A stretch of 61,332 nt of DNA from an uncultured Bacteroidota bacterium. GTDB taxonomy: Bacteria; Bacteroidota; Bacteroidia; 2-12-FULL-35-15. Under the pieces are notes generated by a model, which was not told the origin of the DNA, made no database searches, and saw nothing but the letters and a program-made list of their open reading frames with translations. The DNA lies in the NCBI GenBank assembly GCA_903926385.1, contig CAIYIS010000063.1, positions 1 to 61,332 of the forward strand, given 5' to 3'. The translations under genes were made by a program, and so were the position numbers. Position 1 is the first letter of the stretch. Each line of letters opens with the position of its first letter. Shown in pieces: positions 12,951 through 61,332 of this stretch.

Positions 12951-13005
12951 GATTTATTTATTTATTTCCCTACTCTTTAAAGGATTTTCGGTCTCTCCTC
13001 AATTT

Positions 13006-35800: not shown

Positions 35801-36426
35801 TGCAATCTAGGGTAGACTGGTGAAAAAGCGAAAAACAAAAACGACACATCAATTTCCTACTTTTTTACCCCTAAACTCAATAAATGGTCAATGAAAATCA
35901 AGTTCTGTGTTATTCTTTTGTTCAATATGACCCAAAAAGAGGGGTTAAAGAAAGGGTAAAACAACTATTTTGACCACTTTGGTTCCGTGCTTAAGTATGA
36001 TTGAATCTTGTTTTATTTGATTGAATCGTGTTGAAGTACAATGCAATCGTGTTGAAGTACAATGCAATCTTGTTTAAGTATAATACAATCTAATTGAAGT
36101 GTGATTGAATCGTGTTGAAGTATGATTCAATCATATTTTAATATGATTCGATCTTGTTAAAGTATGATTGAATCTTGTTGAAGTGCGGAACCAAAGCGGC
36201 ACCTTTTGGAGAAAAACGGGCTTAAATACATTAAATTTGGCATTTCCATGGTGAGGGGGGCGGAGGTGAAAATGGGATTGAAGGAGGGGGATTTGGGAAA
36301 AGATGGTCTCTTAAGTTTCTTTTCTAAAAATTGTTTTTAAAAATGGAAGATTAAATATGTTAAGAATCGATAGTTTAAGTTTTCAATAACTAAATTGAAA
36401 TTTCAATGGTTATATTATATTAATTT
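35801..36426. other. intergenic stretch holding tandem array A
   Basis: No gene is visible. It holds the phased 21-bp array (35991-36179) with flanking inverted repeats. A G-rich stretch at about 36249-36300 (runs of 3-6 G) follows, then AT-rich DNA leading to the promoter of the next gene. Confidence 0.6.
35974..36199. repeat. phased tandem array A (9 units of 20-21 bp) inside a 19-bp inverted repeat
   Basis: Nine degenerate units of the type ttgaagtatgattgaatcgtg start their gattgaatc core at 35999, 36019, 36040, 36061, 36082, 36103, 36124, 36145 and 36166, giving spacings of 20 and then seven times 21. The core is a small dyad (gatt-g-aatc). The array is bounded by ccactttggttccgtgctt (35974-35992) and its near-complement (36181-36199, three mismatches). 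Confidence 0.85.
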
Positions 36427-36438: not shown

Positions 36439-38379
36439 ATGAAAAAAACATTAAACGAAAGATTAGTTATTGTAACGCTACTTTTGATAGGCATACTTTA
36501 TTTTTTGCTTTCCTATTTTTCAGAAGGCACCTATGATGGAGGAGATGGAATTCGACATTACCTAGTTTCGAGGTATTCGTGGAAACATCCGGAACAATTT
36601 TTATATAGCTGGGGAAAACCATTTTTCACATTTGTTTCTTCTCCCTTATCTCAATTTGGGTTAATGGGAATAATTGTATTTAATATTTTGTGTGCTTTAG
36701 TATCGGCATATTTATGCTACAAGATAGCCCGAAAATTAAAAATGGACTATCCGTACTTGGTAATTATATTTTTGTGTTTTACTCCCAGTTATTTTCCTAC
36801 GATCAATAGCGGTCTCACCGAACCCTTTTTCGGATTAGTTTTAATAGCATCTATATATTTGATGCAAAAAGAAAACTATTTATGGGCTTGCATTCTTGTT
36901 TCTTTTCTGCCTTTTGTGCGTAATGAAGGATTTTTCTTATTACCCCTTTTCTTTTTAATATTAATTTATAAGAGAAAATATTTGCTGACTCTATTCCTCG
37001 GTTTTGGTACACTGCTGTATAGTATTATTGGTTATTTCTATTACAAAGATTTTTTATGGTTAATCAATCAGAATCCGTATGACGGGAAGAATAAGGCTTT
37101 TTATGGACAAGGAGAATTTCTGCATTTTGTAAAGGGTTACAATTTTTTATTGGGTTCAGCATTAACAATACTTTTTCTGTTAGGAATAGCAAGTATTATT
37201 ATTCGTACATTTTCAAAAGACAAAACAAGCGAACTAAAAAATCAACTATCTTCATTCATGACTATTGAAAATGTTTTAATAGCAAGTTCGTTTGCCGTTT
37301 ATTTTGTAGCTCATTCTGTAATGTGGTGGAAAGGATTGGCAAACTCACTGGGATTACTTCGTGTGTTGGCAGGAGTGATGCCATGTGCGGCTTTGATATG
37401 TTTGCGAGGATTTAATTTAGTGATGATTCCACAATTTAAAGAACGGAAGGTGTTGGAATATGGAATTATTTTGGTGGCTTCAATATGGATAATTCGTAGC
37501 CCGTTTAAACATGAATATTTTCCATATCAATTAAATAAAGAAGAAGCTTTGATTCAAGAAGCCGGAGATTGGTTTAAGGCATCGCCATACACAAAGCAAA
37601 AAGTGTATTATTTGTATCCTTATCTGGCCCATGCATTAAATGTTGACTCGTTTGATCCTAATAAAGTGGGCGAATTATGGGGGTTGTATCCCACTATTAA
37701 AGCCTGGGGTATTGGTGCTATACCAGATAGTACTATCGTTTTCTGGGATGCCCACTTTGGTCCAAACGAATGTCAAATTAAAATTGATACTTTGCTGAAT
37801 GACCCAAATTTTCAATTGCTGAAAACATTTAAGCCTGCTGAACCATTTCAGGTGCTTGGCGGCTATAATATGGAAGTTGATGTTTTTATGAAATTACCAA
37901 AACCAAAAGAACTTGACGTACTACAAAAAGATTCGTTCGACTTAGAAACCTTACCTCCTGCCCTATTGAATACGGTTACTTTACAAGATAAATTATCTTA
38001 TTCCGAAAAACATTCATGCGCTTTATCAAATAAAAATGAATACAGTGTTACGTTAAAAAAACTCGTTTCGGAAATATCTCCAAATACAAAACTCCTTGAC
38101 TTTACTTGTAAGATTCTTGACAACACTGGTAATTCAAAAGATGCGGTGGTTGTTTTGTCGGTTGATTCTAAAGAAGGAAAAAATTTAAAATGGGAAGGAA
38201 GCCCAATTATACTTACTGAACTAAAACAAAATTCGGAGTGGAAGAATTGTAATACAAAATTCGCATTCAATCCAAGTAGCTTTCCAAAGGATGCAATTGT
38301 GAAACTCTATGTGTGGAATAAGAAATTAAAAGAATTTTATGTGGATGATTTAGAAGTGCTTTATCTTGGAATAAAGTAA
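36439..38379 (+). CDS. GT-C-like multi-spanning membrane protein with C-terminal beta domain
   Basis: This 646-aa protein has about ten or eleven hydrophobic segments in the first ~370 residues. After the first segment comes a periplasmic loop with acidic residues (GTYDGGDGIRHYL), then FTPSYFPTINSGLTEPFF. This is the usual style of GT-C glycosyltransferases that use lipid-linked sugars. Residues ~380-490 form a soluble domain (EEALIQEAGDWF...) and ~490-646 a beta-sandwich-like tail ending in YVDDLEVLYLG. The specific sugar and acceptor cannot be read. It converges end to end with the other GT-C gene (stops adjacent at 38379/38380), next to the O-acetylation genes. The glycosyltransferase call is inference. 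Confidence 0.6.
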   Translation: MKKTLNERLVIVTLLLIGILYFLLSYFSEGTYDGGDGIRHYLVSRYSWKHPEQFLYSWGKPFFTFVSSPLSQFGLMGIIVFNILCALVSAYLCYKIARKLKMDYPYLVIIFLCFTPSYFPTINSGLTEPFFGLVLIASIYLMQKENYLWACILVSFLPFVRNEGFFLLPLFFLILIYKRKYLLTLFLGFGTLLYSIIGYFYYKDFLWLINQNPYDGKNKAFYGQGEFLHFVKGYNFLLGSALTILFLLGIASIIIRTFSKDKTSELKNQLSSFMTIENVLIASSFAVYFVAHSVMWWKGLANSLGLLRVLAGVMPCAALICLRGFNLVMIPQFKERKVLEYGIILVASIWIIRSPFKHEYFPYQLNKEEALIQEAGDWFKASPYTKQKVYYLYPYLAHALNVDSFDPNKVGELWGLYPTIKAWGIGAIPDSTIVFWDAHFGPNECQIKIDTLLNDPNFQLLKTFKPAEPFQVLGGYNMEVDVFMKLPKPKELDVLQKDSFDLETLPPALLNTVTLQDKLSYSEKHSCALSNKNEYSVTLKKLVSEISPNTKLLDFTCKILDNTGNSKDAVVVLSVDSKEGKNLKWEGSPIILTELKQNSEWKNCNTKFAFNPSSFPKDAIVKLYVWNKKLKEFYVDDLEVLYLGIK

Positions 38380-51465: not shown

Positions 51466-51915
51466 CTAATCCTTATAATATTTCAAACAAATTCTCAAAT
51501 CTTTCGCTGCCTTTAATAACATTTTCTCTATTCCACTTTCGGCTTTTTTATTCTTAAAATATAGATTGTTATTTTGAAATTCTTTCTTATCAATTTGAGT
51601 TAATAATTCATTGCGAAGTACACTTAGATGTATTGTATTGGCCTTGTCATCATAATCTGGTAATTGTCCCTTTTTAAGCTTGAAGATTATGACTTGAAAA
51701 TAATCTTCGATATTTTCATATGAAATAGAAATGATTTTAGATTTGTCAACATATGTAACTTCGTAAAGTGCATTTCCGTTTACGATAATTTTGTCTAATA
51801 TCAAATTGAATTCTAATTCAAGAAAAGAGAAAACTTCTTTTACATATTTTTCAAAGTGTTTTGAATCTATCATTATTTCATTTGCTATATTAATTCTATA
51901 CCGCCCCTTAATCAT
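51466..51915 (-). CDS. hypothetical protein, up to 149 aa
   Basis: I do not recognise this protein. It has no signal peptide. The first ATG (51915) or the one at 51873 (MIDSKHFEKYVKEV) may be used. The sequence alternates helices and strands, with a lysine-rich C-terminal helix (IEKMLLKAAKDLRICLKYYKD). Size and style resemble small stand-alone or immunity-type proteins, but no partner toxin is nearby. Array B begins about 100 bp upstream of it. Confidence 0.6.
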   Translation of the reverse strand: MIKGRYRINIANEIMIDSKHFEKYVKEVFSFLELEFNLILDKIIVNGNALYEVTYVDKSKIISISYENIEDYFQVIIFKLKKGQLPDYDDKANTIHLSVLRNELLTQIDKKEFQNNNLYFKNKKAESGIEKMLLKAAKDLRICLKYYKD

Positions 51916-52314
51916 TTCCTCCCACTTCGTTTCATTTCACAAATCCTCCGGACTAATGTTTCACCTCACAAATATACCAATAAAACATACCTAACAAAAA
52001 AATCCTGCGCTGGGCAGCATTGTGCTCTATTTAGGAAAGATAGTACTCCATTTAAGAAGAATAGTACTATATTTAGGAAGGATAGTACTATATTCAGGAA
52101 GAATTGTACTATATTTAGGAAGTATAGTACTATATTTAGGAAAGATGGTACTATATTTAGGAAGAATAGTACTATATTTAGGAAAGATAGTACTATATTT
52201 AGGAAGAATAGTACTATTTTTAGGAAGGACAGTATTATATTTAGGAAAGATAGTACTATTCTTGGCAAGAATAGTACTATCCGTTAATTATAATAATGAT
52301 AATGTATTCGTTAA
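51916..52314. other. intergenic stretch dominated by tandem array B
   Basis: Apart from array B there is no supported gene. Frames are open on both strands only because the unit is 21 bp and lacks stops. Confidence 0.7.
52022..52283. repeat. phased tandem array B (12 units of 21 bp)
   Basis: The unit tttaggaagaatagtactata is repeated twelve times with scattered substitutions. The agtact centres fall at 52042, 52063, 52084, 52105 and onward every 21 bp. Each unit centres on the perfect palindrome atagtactat. The array starts about 30 bp past the stop of the 207-aa gene. Confidence 0.92.
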
Positions 52315-52938
52315 CTATTTATGGATAGCGAATTTTTTCCAGTCTGTCCAGTCAGAATACTGGTCTTTGGGTAAAATTTGACGGTTGCGGAGCCAAAAAA
52401 ACTTGTTTACATCCAACCCTTCAATCGTTTTGTAACCTTTCGCACTAGGGTCAATATCTTTTGAGGTGGTTCCATTGTCCCAACTGATTTGAATTTGGTG
52501 TGGTCCAGTGCCTTTCATCCGGTAAATTACAGAGCCGGGCAATGGGCCGTCCAAAATTTCGTCTTGCCTAGGACCGCGAGCCGTATGCGTTTTCAACTCC
52601 ATATCGAAACTTTCGGCAATGGCGGTGGCTGTGGTTTCGTTCGTGGTGGCATTCACTAGTTTTTGACAATCGAGGCGGTAACTCTCCACATCTGCTAACA
52701 TTTTATTTACTGCCACATCACGGTTATTAGGTGTAACGGTGGGCGGGATGGTTTTTGTGCCCGCTTCGGCATCAGTTGCTGCCTGAATGTCAGTGTTAAA
52801 TGTTGCCACTGTGGGAGAGGGCGTACTGTAAAATGTATTCCCATCTACACTATCTTTAATAGCTATGGCTTTTACAATTTTGTCGGCCACTGCATCTGGC
52901 ATGTGCACCACTACTTCAAACTTAGGTGTTGTACTCAT
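52315..52938 (-). CDS. hypothetical protein, 207 aa, flanked by two phased arrays
   Basis: I cannot give a function. It has no signal peptide. Residues 1-120 are helical and Thr/Ala-rich (STPSPTVATFNTDIQAATDAEAG). The last ~80 (PLPGSVIYRMKGTGPHQIQISWDNG ... FFWLRNRQILPKDQYSDWTDWKKF) resemble a fibronectin-III-like beta sandwich. Proteins of this size and plan occur as unnamed families in Bacteroidota. The stop is ~30 bp from array B and the start ~110 bp from array C. Confidence 0.7.
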   Translation of the reverse strand: MSTTPKFEVVVHMPDAVADKIVKAIAIKDSVDGNTFYSTPSPTVATFNTDIQAATDAEAGTKTIPPTVTPNNRDVAVNKMLADVESYRLDCQKLVNATTNETTATAIAESFDMELKTHTARGPRQDEILDGPLPGSVIYRMKGTGPHQIQISWDNGTTSKDIDPSAKGYKTIEGLDVNKFFWLRNRQILPKDQYSDWTDWKKFAIHK

Positions 52939-53474
52939 TTTTTTTGATTTTTGATGTTATTAATTAATTTATGGATTATTGTGTTGAAACAATTGAATAG
53001 TTATTTCGTGTCAAAATTACCTTGTTCTTCATTTCCAAAATCGAGAACTATGTAAAGTTTTTGGTTTACTATGTAAAGTTTTTAGTTTACAAAAACCTGC
53101 TGATGTAAAGTTTTTGGTTTACTATGTAAAGTTTTTAGTTTACAAAAACCTGCTGATGTAAAGTTTTTGATTTACATAAACTGTCCGATGTAAAGTTTTT
53201 GGTTTACATAATGTAAACTTTTAGGTTTACATCAATCAAGTTTAGTTTGTATAAAAACTTAGTGACCTAGCAATTAACCTGCACCTAAAATTACATCTTT
53301 TTACCCTGTAGTTCTTCACCTCTCTCCTGCCCCTCTCCGCAAGAGAGAGGGAGATGCGTGACGGTTGGAATAAGTTTTAAGTATACATATATATATGTAT
53401 TATATTTGCGGGGGGATGATAATGCAACGGAGGTATCGAGTTTCCCTCGAACAAAAAGAATACTCACTAAGAAA
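52939..53474. other. divergent intergenic stretch holding array C
   Basis: This 536-bp gap lies between the leftward 207-aa gene and the rightward 192-aa gene. It contains array C (53050-53236), a C/T-rich patch with a weak hairpin near 53318-53352 (ctctcc...gagag) and tatatatatgtat before the rightward gene, which may be promoter DNA. Confidence 0.6.
53050..53236. repeat. phased array C (7 hairpin units, spacings 21/32/23 bp)
   Basis: Seven copies of gtaaagtttttggtttac (arms gtaaa/tttac) start their tgtaaa at 53051, 53072, 53104, 53125, 53157, 53189 and 53212, giving spacings of 21, 32, 21, 32, 32 and 23. A 53-bp higher-order unit is duplicated within it. Confidence 0.9.
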
Positions 53475-54053
53475 ATGATAGACGCTTTTGACATAATACT
53501 AATAATTTTATTAGTTGCAGCAATTGGGCTTTTCGGTGGCCTAATTTATATCATATACCTTCCGTTTAGAAGGCGACTTATTAAATCAGGGAAACTAACG
53601 GATAAACTTAATCGGAAAATTAATAGAAGTTTTATCATTTTCCTTTGTGCTTTGGGCATTATTATATTTTATTTCAGAGATTACGGACGAACGCCTAGTA
53701 AAAATAGACTTGAAAAAATCTCTAACATTAATCTTCCAAATGACTTCAAAGTTTTAAAAGATGAGTACCAAGATATGATGCAAGACTATTGCATTCTTTA
53801 TGATATCCAAATTGGCAAAAATTCAGGGGCGGAACTTACTAGAAATATAAAAAAGTCGAAATTCTATAATCCAAACTCCATTAATAATGGAGTCTGGATT
53901 AAAAAGGATTTGATGGTGGTTGACTCAGTGAAAGCGGTTTGGGCAAAATCAACCAAAGGCTACTACTTTAATCGGCAAGACGGACTTACCAATTATAAAA
54001 TTGAACTTGATACAGTGACGTATATTTTAAAATACACTGAGTGTTCGGACTAA
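53475..54053 (+). CDS. membrane-anchored hypothetical protein, 192 aa
   Basis: The frame is open from 53358, but the ATG at 53475 opens the natural start (MIDAFDIILIILLVAAIGLFG). There are two hydrophobic segments (about 5-30 and 50-67, FIIFLCALGIIIFYF) separated by a basic loop. A soluble ~120-residue domain follows (NDFKVLKDEYQDMMQDYCILYDIQIG ... TVTYILKYTECSD). I do not recognise the family. It faces convergently the PD40 gene, with a shared terminator between them. Confidence 0.65.
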   Translation: MIDAFDIILIILLVAAIGLFGGLIYIIYLPFRRRLIKSGKLTDKLNRKINRSFIIFLCALGIIIFYFRDYGRTPSKNRLEKISNINLPNDFKVLKDEYQDMMQDYCILYDIQIGKNSGAELTRNIKKSKFYNPNSINNGVWIKKDLMVVDSVKAVWAKSTKGYYFNRQDGLTNYKIELDTVTYILKYTECSD

Positions 54054-58427: not shown

Positions 58428-60332
58428 TTACATTAGTTCGCTGAGTTCCATCCAGCGAAACGATTTATCATCGAGTTCGCTTTCTAGTTTACCAATCTTC
58501 AGCGCCCATTCGGTCATGTCTTCGTGATTGGAACTTCCGGCATTCAGCAGGTCGGTGTATTTTTGTTTTTCAACTTCCAGTAAAGCGATTTCTTTTTCGA
58601 GTTGTTCAAATTCAAATTTTTCTTTAAAGCTCGGTTTTCTTTTTCCAGTAGCAGGTTCGATAGGTTCGGGTTCGGGGATTGACTTTTTTTCGGCTATTGC
58701 AATTTTTGTTTCTTCCTTTTTCAGCAATCGTTCTTCCTGCTCCTTTTTATCTCTGTACTCGGTGTAATTGCCCGGGAAATCGCGCACCACACCATTGCCT
58801 TCGAAAACAAAAAGGTGGTCTACCATTTTGTCCATAAAGTATCTGTCGTGAGTAACGATGAGAACGCACCCCTGAAAATTAGTAAGAAAATCTTCGAGTA
58901 CACTAAGTGTTAAAATATCTAAATCGTTAGTAGGTTCGTCAAGAATAAGGAAATTAGGATTCTTGATGAGTATGGTCATTAAATAAAGTCTGCGTTTTTC
59001 GCCTCCGCTTAACTTCGACACATAATTATACTGCACATCGGGATTGAACTGAAATTTTTGTAGCAATTGAGCAGCGGTAAGTTTGCTGCCATCGGCCAAG
59101 GGAATAAATTCGGCAATATCTTTTACCACTTCTATTACTCGCTTATCTTCGTTCAGCATAAGTCCGTCCTGAGAGTAATATCCAAACACGATGGTTTCGC
59201 CAGTTTGAATTTTTCCGGCATCGGGTTTTTCTAATCCCATTATCATATTAAGCAGAGTGGTTTTTCCTACACCGTTTTTGCCGATGATACCAATCTTCTC
59301 TCCTTTTTTAAATGTGTAAGAAAAATTATTGAGGATGGAAAAGTCTCCGTAGGCTTTCTTGATTTTAATAAGCTCGAGTATTTTTCCGCCCAAACGTGTC
59401 ATTTTGACTGACAGTTCCAGCTTTTCTTCCACTTTTTTGCTGAAAGCTTTATCTTTTACTTCGTAAAACGAATCGACACGATATTTGGCCTTGGTTCCTC
59501 TGGCTCTTGGCATTTTGCGAACCCACTCCAGCTCTCTTCGGTAAAGATTTTTTGCTTTATCCACCTCCGCATTCTCCATGTCTTCGCGTTCGGCTTTTTT
59601 CTCCACAAAATATTGGAAGTTGCCACGGTAATGAAATATTTTGCCGGCATCTATTTCTATAATTTCGCTGCAAACGCTGTCGAGAAAATAACGGTCGTGG
59701 GAAACGAGTAGCAAAGTAAGGTCTCTTGAAATTAAATAATTTTCGAGCCACTCTATCATTTCTACATCCAAGTGATTGGTTGGTTCGTCAAGTATAAGCA
59801 AATCGGGTTCGTCTATAAGAACTTTTGCAAGAGCGACTCTTTTCTTTTGTCCGCCCGAAAGGACACCGATTTTTTTATCGAGAAAGGCAATTTTTAAGCG
59901 TTGTAATACTTCATGAATTTTGGCTTCTACACTCCAGGCTTCCAATTTATCCATCATGGCGGTACACTCTTCGAGACGAACGGAGGTGCCTTCGTTGTAA
60001 TTGGTTTCGAACTCATCTAAAGCTCTCTCGTAATCGCGGACTGCATTGAGCAAAGGATTATTGGTATTGTAAATGGCTTCTATAACGGTACTTTCTTCAT
60101 CAAAAAATGGATTTTGATCGAGATAAATAATGCTGATGTCTTTACGGAATGTTACAGTACCTTGGTCGGGAATTTCTTTGCCCATAATAATTTTGAGCAA
60201 TGTAGATTTTCCGGCACCATTGCGAGCAATGAGACCAATGCGTTGGCCTTTATTAAGGCCGAAACTAATTTTATTGAACAGATTTTTGGGGCCGTAAGCT
60301 TTAGAAACCGATTCGAGAGATAGATAATTCAA
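58428..60332 (-). CDS. ABC-F family ATPase (Uup-like)
   Basis: The start codon is TTG (60330-60332, NYLSLESVSKAYG follows), and no ATG lies near. The 634-aa protein has two ABC domains. The first has Walker A RNGAGKST and signature LSGGQKKR, and the second has GKNGVGKTT and LSGGEKRR. They are joined by the ABC-F linker (~235-300, helical, MENAEVDKAKNLYRRELEWVRKMPRARGTKAK). There are no membrane segments. The C-terminus (~555-634) is a coiled coil like that of Uup, which can bind DNA or ribosomes. It acts on ribosomes, either as a translation factor or for resistance, and its length and coiled coil favour the Uup group. Confidence 0.93.
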   Translation of the reverse strand: MNYLSLESVSKAYGPKNLFNKISFGLNKGQRIGLIARNGAGKSTLLKIIMGKEIPDQGTVTFRKDISIIYLDQNPFFDEESTVIEAIYNTNNPLLNAVRDYERALDEFETNYNEGTSVRLEECTAMMDKLEAWSVEAKIHEVLQRLKIAFLDKKIGVLSGGQKKRVALAKVLIDEPDLLILDEPTNHLDVEMIEWLENYLISRDLTLLLVSHDRYFLDSVCSEIIEIDAGKIFHYRGNFQYFVEKKAEREDMENAEVDKAKNLYRRELEWVRKMPRARGTKAKYRVDSFYEVKDKAFSKKVEEKLELSVKMTRLGGKILELIKIKKAYGDFSILNNFSYTFKKGEKIGIIGKNGVGKTTLLNMIMGLEKPDAGKIQTGETIVFGYYSQDGLMLNEDKRVIEVVKDIAEFIPLADGSKLTAAQLLQKFQFNPDVQYNYVSKLSGGEKRRLYLMTILIKNPNFLILDEPTNDLDILTLSVLEDFLTNFQGCVLIVTHDRYFMDKMVDHLFVFEGNGVVRDFPGNYTEYRDKKEQEERLLKKEETKIAIAEKKSIPEPEPIEPATGKRKPSFKEKFEFEQLEKEIALLEVEKQKYTDLLNAGSSNHEDMTEWALKIGKLESELDDKSFRWMELSELM

Positions 60333-60662: not shown

Positions 60663-60860
60663 AAGGGGAAAGAGGATTTCAAATTTCAGATTTCAAATTT
60701 GGGATTGGGGAGGGGAGGGAATTTGGGATTGAAGGAAATGAACCGGAACTATACTATATATAATAGTATGGGATAGCAAAAAGGGGGGAGAGAGGAGGGG
60801 AAGGGAGGAAATGATAAAATGAGGGAGGGGGAAACGGAAAGGAGGGCAAGAAATGGATGA

Positions 60861-61332
60861 GCGAGGGTTGGAAATTGAAAAAAAGTAGAAAATAGGGCCG
60901 ACCGTTGATAGGAAATTGAAACGCGATGATAGGAAATTGAGAAAAAGTGGAAAAAACGCATGAGCGATGATTGGAAATTGAATAAAAACGCAAAAACAGG
61001 ATGACCGCTGATAGGAAATTGAAACGCGATGATTGGAAATTGAGAAAAAGTGGAAAAAACGGATGACCGTTGATAGGAAATTGAAAAAAAGTGGAAAATC
61101 CGGACGACCGTTGATAGGAAATTGAAAAGCGATGATAGGAAATTGAAAAAAAAAAGCAAGAAATTGAAAAGCGATGATAGGAAATTGAATAAAAAAGTAA
61201 GAAACGCACGACCGATGATAGGAAACGCTGACGCGATGATAGGAAATTGAGAAAAAGTGGAAAAAACGGATGACCGCTGATAGGAAATTGAATAAAAAAG
61301 TAAGAAACGCACGACCGATGATAGGAAACGCT
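60861..61332. repeat. phased array D (15 units, spacings 21 or 41 bp), runs off the window
   Basis: The core gataggaaattga has its gg at 60870, 60911, 60932, 60973, 61014, 61035, 61076, 61117, 61138, 61159, 61180, 61221, 61242, 61283 and 61324. Every spacing is 21 or 41 bp. Short units have aaacgc- or aaagc-type linkers, and long ones carry gaaaaagtggaaaaaacgg or aataaaaaagtaagaaacgc. The array continues past the end of the window. Confidence 0.93.

Follow-up and report, generated by a model that had tools for sequence, protein, structure and literature searches.

Non-coding repeat arrays with a two-turn, 21-bp step in a group of uncultured Bacteroidota and their association with an unnamed family of helical and fibronectin type III proteins

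Non-coding arrays of short repeats that keep a step of about 21 bp, two turns of DNA, are dense in the genome of an uncultured Bacteroidota bacterium and in six close species, and many of them adjoin genes of one protein family, here called SP, with a fixed place upstream of the genes of its SP-a subfamily. The class suggests an undescribed regulatory element, most likely a predicted row of sites at which proteins, of the LytTR type at part of the loci, would bind along one face of the helix. Array D, at the end of the contig analysed here, belongs to this class as a non-coding row of at least three copies at about 21 bp (20 to 22), and is a dispersed, composite repeat.

The window, that is, the whole stretch of DNA analysed, is one complete contig (C63) of 61,332 bases from a draft genome of 85 contigs and 4.27 Mb. 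Its right end holds the following features.

58428 to 60332, minus strand: gene for an ABC-F ATPase, a neighbour only, outside the D element
60745 to 60865, plus strand: leader of the D element, purine-rich, opening with an AT-rich palindrome
60866 to 61332, plus strand: array D, 15 cores resembling GATAGGAAATTGA at steps of 21 and 41 bp, with a 103-bp higher-order repeat, truncated by the contig end

The sequence-only reading had counted 15 cores in array D with the fourteen spacings 41, 21, 41, 41, 21, 41, 41, 21, 21, 21, 41, 21, 41, and 41, and our recount was identical (core starts at 60866, 60907, 60928, 60969, 61010, 61031, 61072, 61113, 61134, 61155, 61176, 61217, 61238, 61279, and 61320). 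A stricter definition of the core absorbs 61155 and 61217 into spacings of 42 and 62, and its listing ends short of 61320. The exact sequence GATNGGAAATTGA is present in 11 of the 15 cores, those at 60866, 61155, 61217, and 61320 being degenerate. Tandem Repeats Finder gave the array a score of 577 and a higher-order unit of 103 bp in 4.6 copies, which corresponds to 41 + 41 + 21. The 41-bp unit is probably 20 + 21 in turn, judging by its second part, which matches the 21-bp unit at 10.4 of 21 positions against 6.1 in shuffles (consensus against consensus, P = 0.064); the identity of the array at lag 21 is 0.42. All copies in array D go back to a single ancestral repeat, and the fourteen spacings are therefore not fourteen independent tests. 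No clear dyad was seen in the array, and an Rfam scan gave no match there at the gathering threshold. Far from it, at 12967 to 13000 of the window, Rfam matched the DUF805b RNA (RF02914) with 36.5 bits, the gathering score being 35.6.

The genome-wide core search that the sequence-only reading had proposed returned 49 exact matches to GATNGGAAATTGA, of which 48 fall in eight array places and one elsewhere (C59), and none to the reversed pattern; together with the Tandem Repeats Finder score, these counts place array D beyond chance. Besides the window, the places are on contigs C36, C8, C2, C45, C39, C37, and C6. Their pooled spacings are chiefly 21 (27 cases) and 41 (37 cases), with 42 in 6 and 40 in 1, so that the long spacing is 41 rather than 42 in 37 of 44 cases. 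Four of the eight places run into a contig end (C63, C39, C37, and C6), as expected where short-read assembly met a repeat, and array D, too, stops at the contig end and not at an end of its own. The first 124 bases of C37 equal the last 124 of the window with one mismatch, and the array on C37 stops within about 60 bases; by this overlap, C37 may be the continuation of array D at the same locus, and if so, the eight places are seven loci.

The leader is common to the window, C8, C2, C39, and C45 (90 to 92% identity within 60745 to 60906) and partly present on C36. Several copies are followed on their 3' side by a segment that contains hairpins and a further AT palindrome, and its modules also occur dispersed on their own (52 matches). 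On C36 (L017 5778 to 6101), the frame of leader and trailer holds a second array with another, 42-bp unit (GATGTTGGCG...) before the D units, as if the contents of the frame were exchangeable. A further dispersed stretch, TATATTTGTGGGAGGAAATTTAAGCGG followed by the hairpin TTTGCAGGTGGAAAAACACCTGCAAAGGC, adjoins several arrays (L017 6800 to 6880, L099 350 to 450, and L118 2000 to 2100), and the hairpin alone also adjoins an array in another species (L118). Genome G020 has sequences that match both flanks of the C45 copy, but they are separated by 25 bp and enclose no array. No SP-a or SP-b profile match lies near any D place, and the nearest open reading frames at seven of the eight places (C37 left out; four places cut by contig ends) include no SP gene.

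It had also been suggested that array D might be a long protein-binding platform next to the ABC-F gene. The closest named relatives of the ABC-F protein are from uncultured Bacteroidetes known from metagenome assemblies (88 to 92% identical), and it was by this identity alone (88 to 92%) that the six close species were set. When the DNA upstream of the gene was inspected in eight relatives (G014, G004, G046, G051, G011, G013, G024, and G015; about 1.4 kb per genome, except for 0.7 kb in G013), an array was found in one of them, G051, with an unrelated unit and other neighbours, and the other places of the D family adjoin genes other than ABC-F. We therefore see no link between array D and the ABC-F gene, and this part of the suggestion is not supported.

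Three further arrays and one SP gene lie within the window.

35993 to 36184: array A, a 21-bp array of 9 units, intergenic, its unit unrelated to that of D
52028 to 52280: array C, a 21-bp array of 12 units with the palindrome TAGTACTA, 35 bp past the end of the SP-b gene
52315 to 52938, minus strand: SP-b gene, 207 amino acids, helical N-terminal part and fibronectin type III (FN3) domain, a member of the array-linked family
53047 to 53232: array B, with core spacings of 21 and 32 bp (two and three turns), on the upstream side of the SP-b gene

Arrays A, B, and C and many more have the step in common and are unrelated in sequence. In array B, a 53-bp higher-order unit mixes two-turn and three-turn steps. 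The genes adjoining arrays A, C, and B (36439 to 38379, 51466 to 51915, and 53358 to 54053, respectively) have no Pfam match at an E value of 0.01, and the opposite flank of array A encodes a small homologue of retroviral-type aspartyl proteases (PF13650; 35274 to 35705).

The window and 20 unselected stretches of its own genome, 413 kb in all, contained 25 arrays, 16 of them on the 21-bp step, D included, as judged by a period filter (20 to 22, 41 to 43, 62 to 64, 103, and multiples) that was fixed after the first arrays had been inspected. The six close species had 19 arrays with this step in 291 kb, and 17 other species of the genus had a single weak one, of 22 bp, in 766 kb. For a survey of spacing, 73 arrays of at least 120 bp (median length, 243 bp) were pooled from selected and unselected stretches; the modal spacing was 21 in 54 of them, 42 in 5, 22 in 2, and 41 in 1. 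The spacings do not spread freely: of 751 between cores, 492 are exactly 21 and 532 lie within 20 to 22. The claim that spacing follows helical phase rather than slippage of a single unit is supported in one respect, the two-turn step being conserved across unrelated arrays, and is not supported in the other, as within D the duplication of two related units suffices. G045 and G015, of the same genus, also have the 21-bp step, as do the three loci inspected in a genome of another family; some arrays step by 22 or 32 bp instead.

Among 62 arrays with two neighbours, 37 stand between tandem, 16 between divergent, and 9 between convergent genes. No motif common to all arrays was seen by eye. Comparison of orthologous sites across the close species mostly failed, since DNA between genes has diverged too far and gene order is interrupted close to the arrays. 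Where it succeeded, arrays came and went: in G020, the flanks of two arrays are 25 and 47 bp apart with nothing array-like between them, and other close species have no array within 1 kb, on the corresponding side, of the genes that match those beside the arrays at L279 4289 and L280 10048. An origin from RAYT/REP elements was considered and rejected, as counts of PF01797 do not track the arrays (2 weak matches in the own genome, G000; array-free genomes can exceed this, e.g., G015 with 11 and G021 with 10). In the open-licence PMC literature, the terms that we searched returned no paper on 21-bp arrays in Bacteroidota.

SP proteins are unnamed, of about 225 amino acids, with a helical part and an FN3 domain, and the own genome has 34 profile matches to two of their subfamilies. 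Pfam, NCBIfam, and PHROGs gave no notable match for eight SP-a members, and neither did Pfam for three members of other subfamilies. In the structure predicted for the SP-b protein of the window (mean pLDDT, 82), a helical N-terminal part precedes a C-terminal FN3 domain (Foldseek E value, 5.5e-5; VIA-align Z score, 11.1, rmsd 2.1 over 81 residues, comparing model residues 124 to 207), and the SP-a model (mean pLDDT, 63) was too poor for a structure search. A viral origin of the arrays was also rejected: the exact two-core pattern of D had no match in viral contigs, and the folds that the SP-b model matches in BFVD belong for the most part to FN3-type proteins and tail proteins.

In the unselected sample, 8 of the 16 arrays adjoin proteins of the SP subfamilies, or 10 of 16 when two hand-picked singletons are counted. 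The SP seed proteins had been picked for standing beside arrays, and a test of the link therefore has to use members found independently. Of 36 genomes of the genus, 8 had matches to a profile built from eight SP-a proteins, namely, the seven array species (8 to 19 matches each) and G045 (8 matches). Thirty SP-a loci were fetched, and 24 have a 21-bp array, upstream of the gene in 24 of 24 (22 placed together; L412 and L427 by coordinates). Of the six loci with no array, three have at most 320 bp upstream before the contig ends (L410, L418, and L426) and three have more (L404, L417, and L422). Further SP-a loci of the own genome have an array at L461, which repeats a seed locus, and at L463, and none at L462. 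At several of the loci L398 to L425, in different species, phrases like GTTCTTTGAATT and AAACCTCCATTTT recur within about 140 bp upstream of the SP-a arrays.

Arrays are also present at 13 of 18 SP-b loci (none at L434, L436, L438, L439, and L457), behind the gene in 7 of 9, and homologous SP-c genes of two species both have one (L107 and L301); 12 short, weak SP-b matches in other genomes (L440 to L451) have none. Related SP genes carry arrays of unrelated sequence. In G045, which lies outside the close group, all four SP loci fetched, of 22 SP matches, have arrays, and 40 kb of other DNA has none; G015 has an array at its single SP match. A search of the phylum with the SP-a profile covered 395 genomes (at most 7 candidates scored in those listed), and among the matches listed, one genome of another family (G305) has three SP-a homologues (E values, 7.5e-21, 4.8e-15, and 2.4e-13). 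All three have 21-bp arrays, about 130 to 170 bp upstream of the matched stretch, in a check that was made after the rule had been set.

LytTR regulators provide a second association. Published LytTR sites consist of direct repeats of 9 bp, in most cases separated by 12 bp, which amounts to a 21-bp step (PMC6193735), and BldC is reported as a regulator able to bind rows of direct repeats cooperatively (PMC5859096). In the own genome, 10 of the 23 loci with a LytTR match have an array, about 2.9 being expected from array density (Poisson P = 0.00075). The cases at L381 and L395 are weak or odd, and in seven of the ten the open frames are under 200 amino acids, below the size of a receiver-plus-LytTR protein. 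The order is regulator, SP gene, array at L387, L388, L389, and L396 and regulator, array, SP gene at L385 and L392. The seven array species have 10 to 23 LytTR matches per genome and other species 1 to 19, so that enrichment by count is only modest. The 23 matches of the own genome compare with about 165 arrays expected from density, and none of them adjoins a D place; array D itself has the 21-bp direct-repeat step of a LytTR operator array and no LytTR gene at its locus. L387 (1768 to 2061) and L388 (2765 to 3070) are related LytTR-SP cassettes whose dyad units have different stems, both with CGGAC on one strand. LuxR-type and Crp-like regulators adjoin other arrays (L202, L201, and L302), where they were seen as neighbours with no independent count.

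The units of many arrays tend toward dyads. Compared with column-permuted versions of themselves, 50 arrays had mean fold z scores of -1.09 and -1.21 on the two strands, and 150 control arrays built from intergenic 21-mers had a mean of -0.08. The 50 arrays, with lag-21 identities of 0.62 to 0.97, were what remained after arrays under 115 bp, arrays with lag-21 identity under 0.6 (D among them), and loci L376, L381, and L396 had been dropped. In a set of 32 SP-linked arrays (nine also in the 50), from which those under 95 bp or 0.55 identity were excluded, the scores were -1.50 on the sense and -1.43 on the antisense strand (difference, -0.07; standard error, 0.25). The fold signal has no strand preference, which points to DNA rather than RNA. 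The dyad effect is partial: the score on the better strand passes -1.64 in 46% of the 50 arrays and in 56% of the 32, 6 of 52 units reach P < 0.05 in a test for perfect dyads, and entropy hardly differs in and out of dyads (0.50 against 0.56). Conserved columns are modestly clustered (autocorrelation at lags 1 to 3, 0.047 against -0.151; P < 0.05 for 22% of the arrays), which fits units made of a core and a linker that drifts.

We tentatively read the arrays as two-turn rows of putative regulator-binding sites, with D as an orphan copy, and hold this with somewhat less than even confidence. Each array would be a row of sites for a dedicated DNA-binding regulator, of the LytTR type at some loci. 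The two-turn step would align neighbouring molecules along a single face of the DNA, allowing them to bind cooperatively and control the linked gene; duplication of units would lengthen the arrays, and selection would keep the core and the step while the linkers drifted. Array D would be a copy with no visible SP gene at its eight contig places, most of them with the common leader. A binding platform is plausible for the class and no more than a candidate reading for array D. The pitch is common to the class and follows a gene family across taxa, and chance or pure satellite drift is therefore an incomplete account. Unrelated arrays at related SP genes would be odd for a conserved pair of regulator and operator and count against binding-site rows, as do, for operators, the mixed orientation of the arrays and the SP-b arrays that mostly lie behind the gene. 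The 23 LytTR matches set against about 165 expected arrays, the partial nature of the dyads, and the SP-a and SP-b loci that have no array speak against it too, and for D in particular so do the lack of a nearby SP or LytTR match, of a clear dyad, and of a conserved position in relatives. A bolder version, to which we give slightly less credence, is an undescribed Bacteroidota cassette in which diverse helical and FN3 proteins would have private repeat rows that conserve the two-turn step and a weak dyad, with LytTR regulators in several loci, recognition keyed to pitch, and locus-specific addresses; array D would then be a runaway orphan.

Copying that is blind to sequence offers a possible account of its own, in which slippage or template switching over two turns would, in these species, turn nearly any stretch into tandem copies of about 21 bp and the arrays, D included, would be functionless satellites. 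It would explain units that are unrelated in sequence and in many cases have no dyad, the turnover described above at G020, L279, and L280, and the dispersal of D in the manner of a satellite family, the spacing of which the 103-bp higher-order repeat accounts for; its closest precedent is the tandem repeats of Borgs, to which PMC9879509 ascribes independent origin and fast evolution. It does not sit well with the arrays that accompany SP genes into G045, G015, and G305, with the fixed side at SP-a genes, with the homologous SP-c genes that bear arrays in both species, or with the dyad excess. We judge such copying nearly as likely as binding-site rows and, for array D with no visible partner gene, more likely. 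Less probable, and on the whole unlikely, is that the repeats are transcribed with the SP messenger, as its 5' leader for SP-a and its 3' tail for SP-b, and act there as rows of RNA sites or hairpins. A consensus promoter box for Bacteroidota is TAnnTTTG. No such box lies in the gap between array and SP-a gene at 20 of 22 loci, and one lies within 220 bp upstream of the array at 8 of 22, as transcription through the array would have it, and fold energies beat those of column-permuted controls; the box ahead of the array, however, was found at only 8 of 22 loci, and the fold signal is indifferent to strand.

A phased platform of bent DNA or nucleoid protein for the ABC-F gene draws on the A-tracts and the two-turn step of array D and is very improbable, given other arrays with no A-tracts (e.g., L099 537 to 962), the lack of conservation upstream of ABC-F, and the copies of D beside other genes. 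We give least credence to the arrays as coding sequence for heptad-repeat peptides. Twenty-one bases are seven codons, the minus-strand frames are open across array D, open frames are in slight excess over permuted controls (2.69 versus 2.19; standard error for the difference, 0.16), and there is a small synonymous excess of 0.06 (standard error, 0.03). However, neither 41 nor 103, both steps found in D, is divisible by three, and they break the frame, which speaks against D as part of an expressed heptad-repeat protein; other arrays step by 22 and 32, column variation in 46 arrays has no period-3 signal (0.082 against 0.099), and 4 of 45 arrays have no open frame.

The arrays open one question to testing, namely, whether what is inherited and selected in a regulatory array can be how its repeats are spaced and not which sequence they have. 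A simple rule, that a 21-bp array stands just upstream of an SP-a gene, was set on one genus, held three times out of three in another family and so predicts where arrays will be found, and the arrays give a first handle on an unnamed family of FN3 proteins. Pitch as the recognised feature, if true, would be new in kind among gene-linked arrays of direct repeats.

Operator repeats of the LytTR family are known for AgrA and ComE. Operators of the HdrR/BrsR type, according to PMC6193735, have the same 21-bp direct-repeat step (9 bp + 12 bp) at autoregulatory loci beside the regulator gene, and are repeat pairs just upstream of the -35 element, whereas the arrays here are rows, mostly of about 8 to 13 units, with unrelated sequences. 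LytTR genes are enriched beside the arrays, which is a further likeness; unlike those operators, the arrays often have no LytTR gene nearby, and D has none beside it. Iterons of plasmid origins are also rows of direct repeats about two turns apart, with a system-specific sequence and the cognate gene adjoining. The present arrays, in contrast, stand at many loci of draft bacterial genomes, the linked protein is helical with an FN3 domain, and nothing indicates an origin function. The satellites of Leptospira interrogans are, like the D family, non-coding and dispersed in a bacterial genome, but those listed have longer repeats (37, 46, and 69 nt), and the sections concerned mention no gene link (PMC6749651). 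Borg genomes, as portrayed in PMC9879509, resemble those studied here in having many independent, fast-evolving arrays, partly intergenic and in an intergenic example with units of 20 to 21 nt; Borg repeats are perfect, with varying unit lengths, whereas ours are imperfect (the lag-21 identities of the 50 arrays above are not those of perfect copies free of single-nucleotide differences), mostly keep to a 21-bp step, and are in many cases linked to one gene family. Of the printed phenomena that we found, Borg repeats and Leptospira satellites are the nearest.
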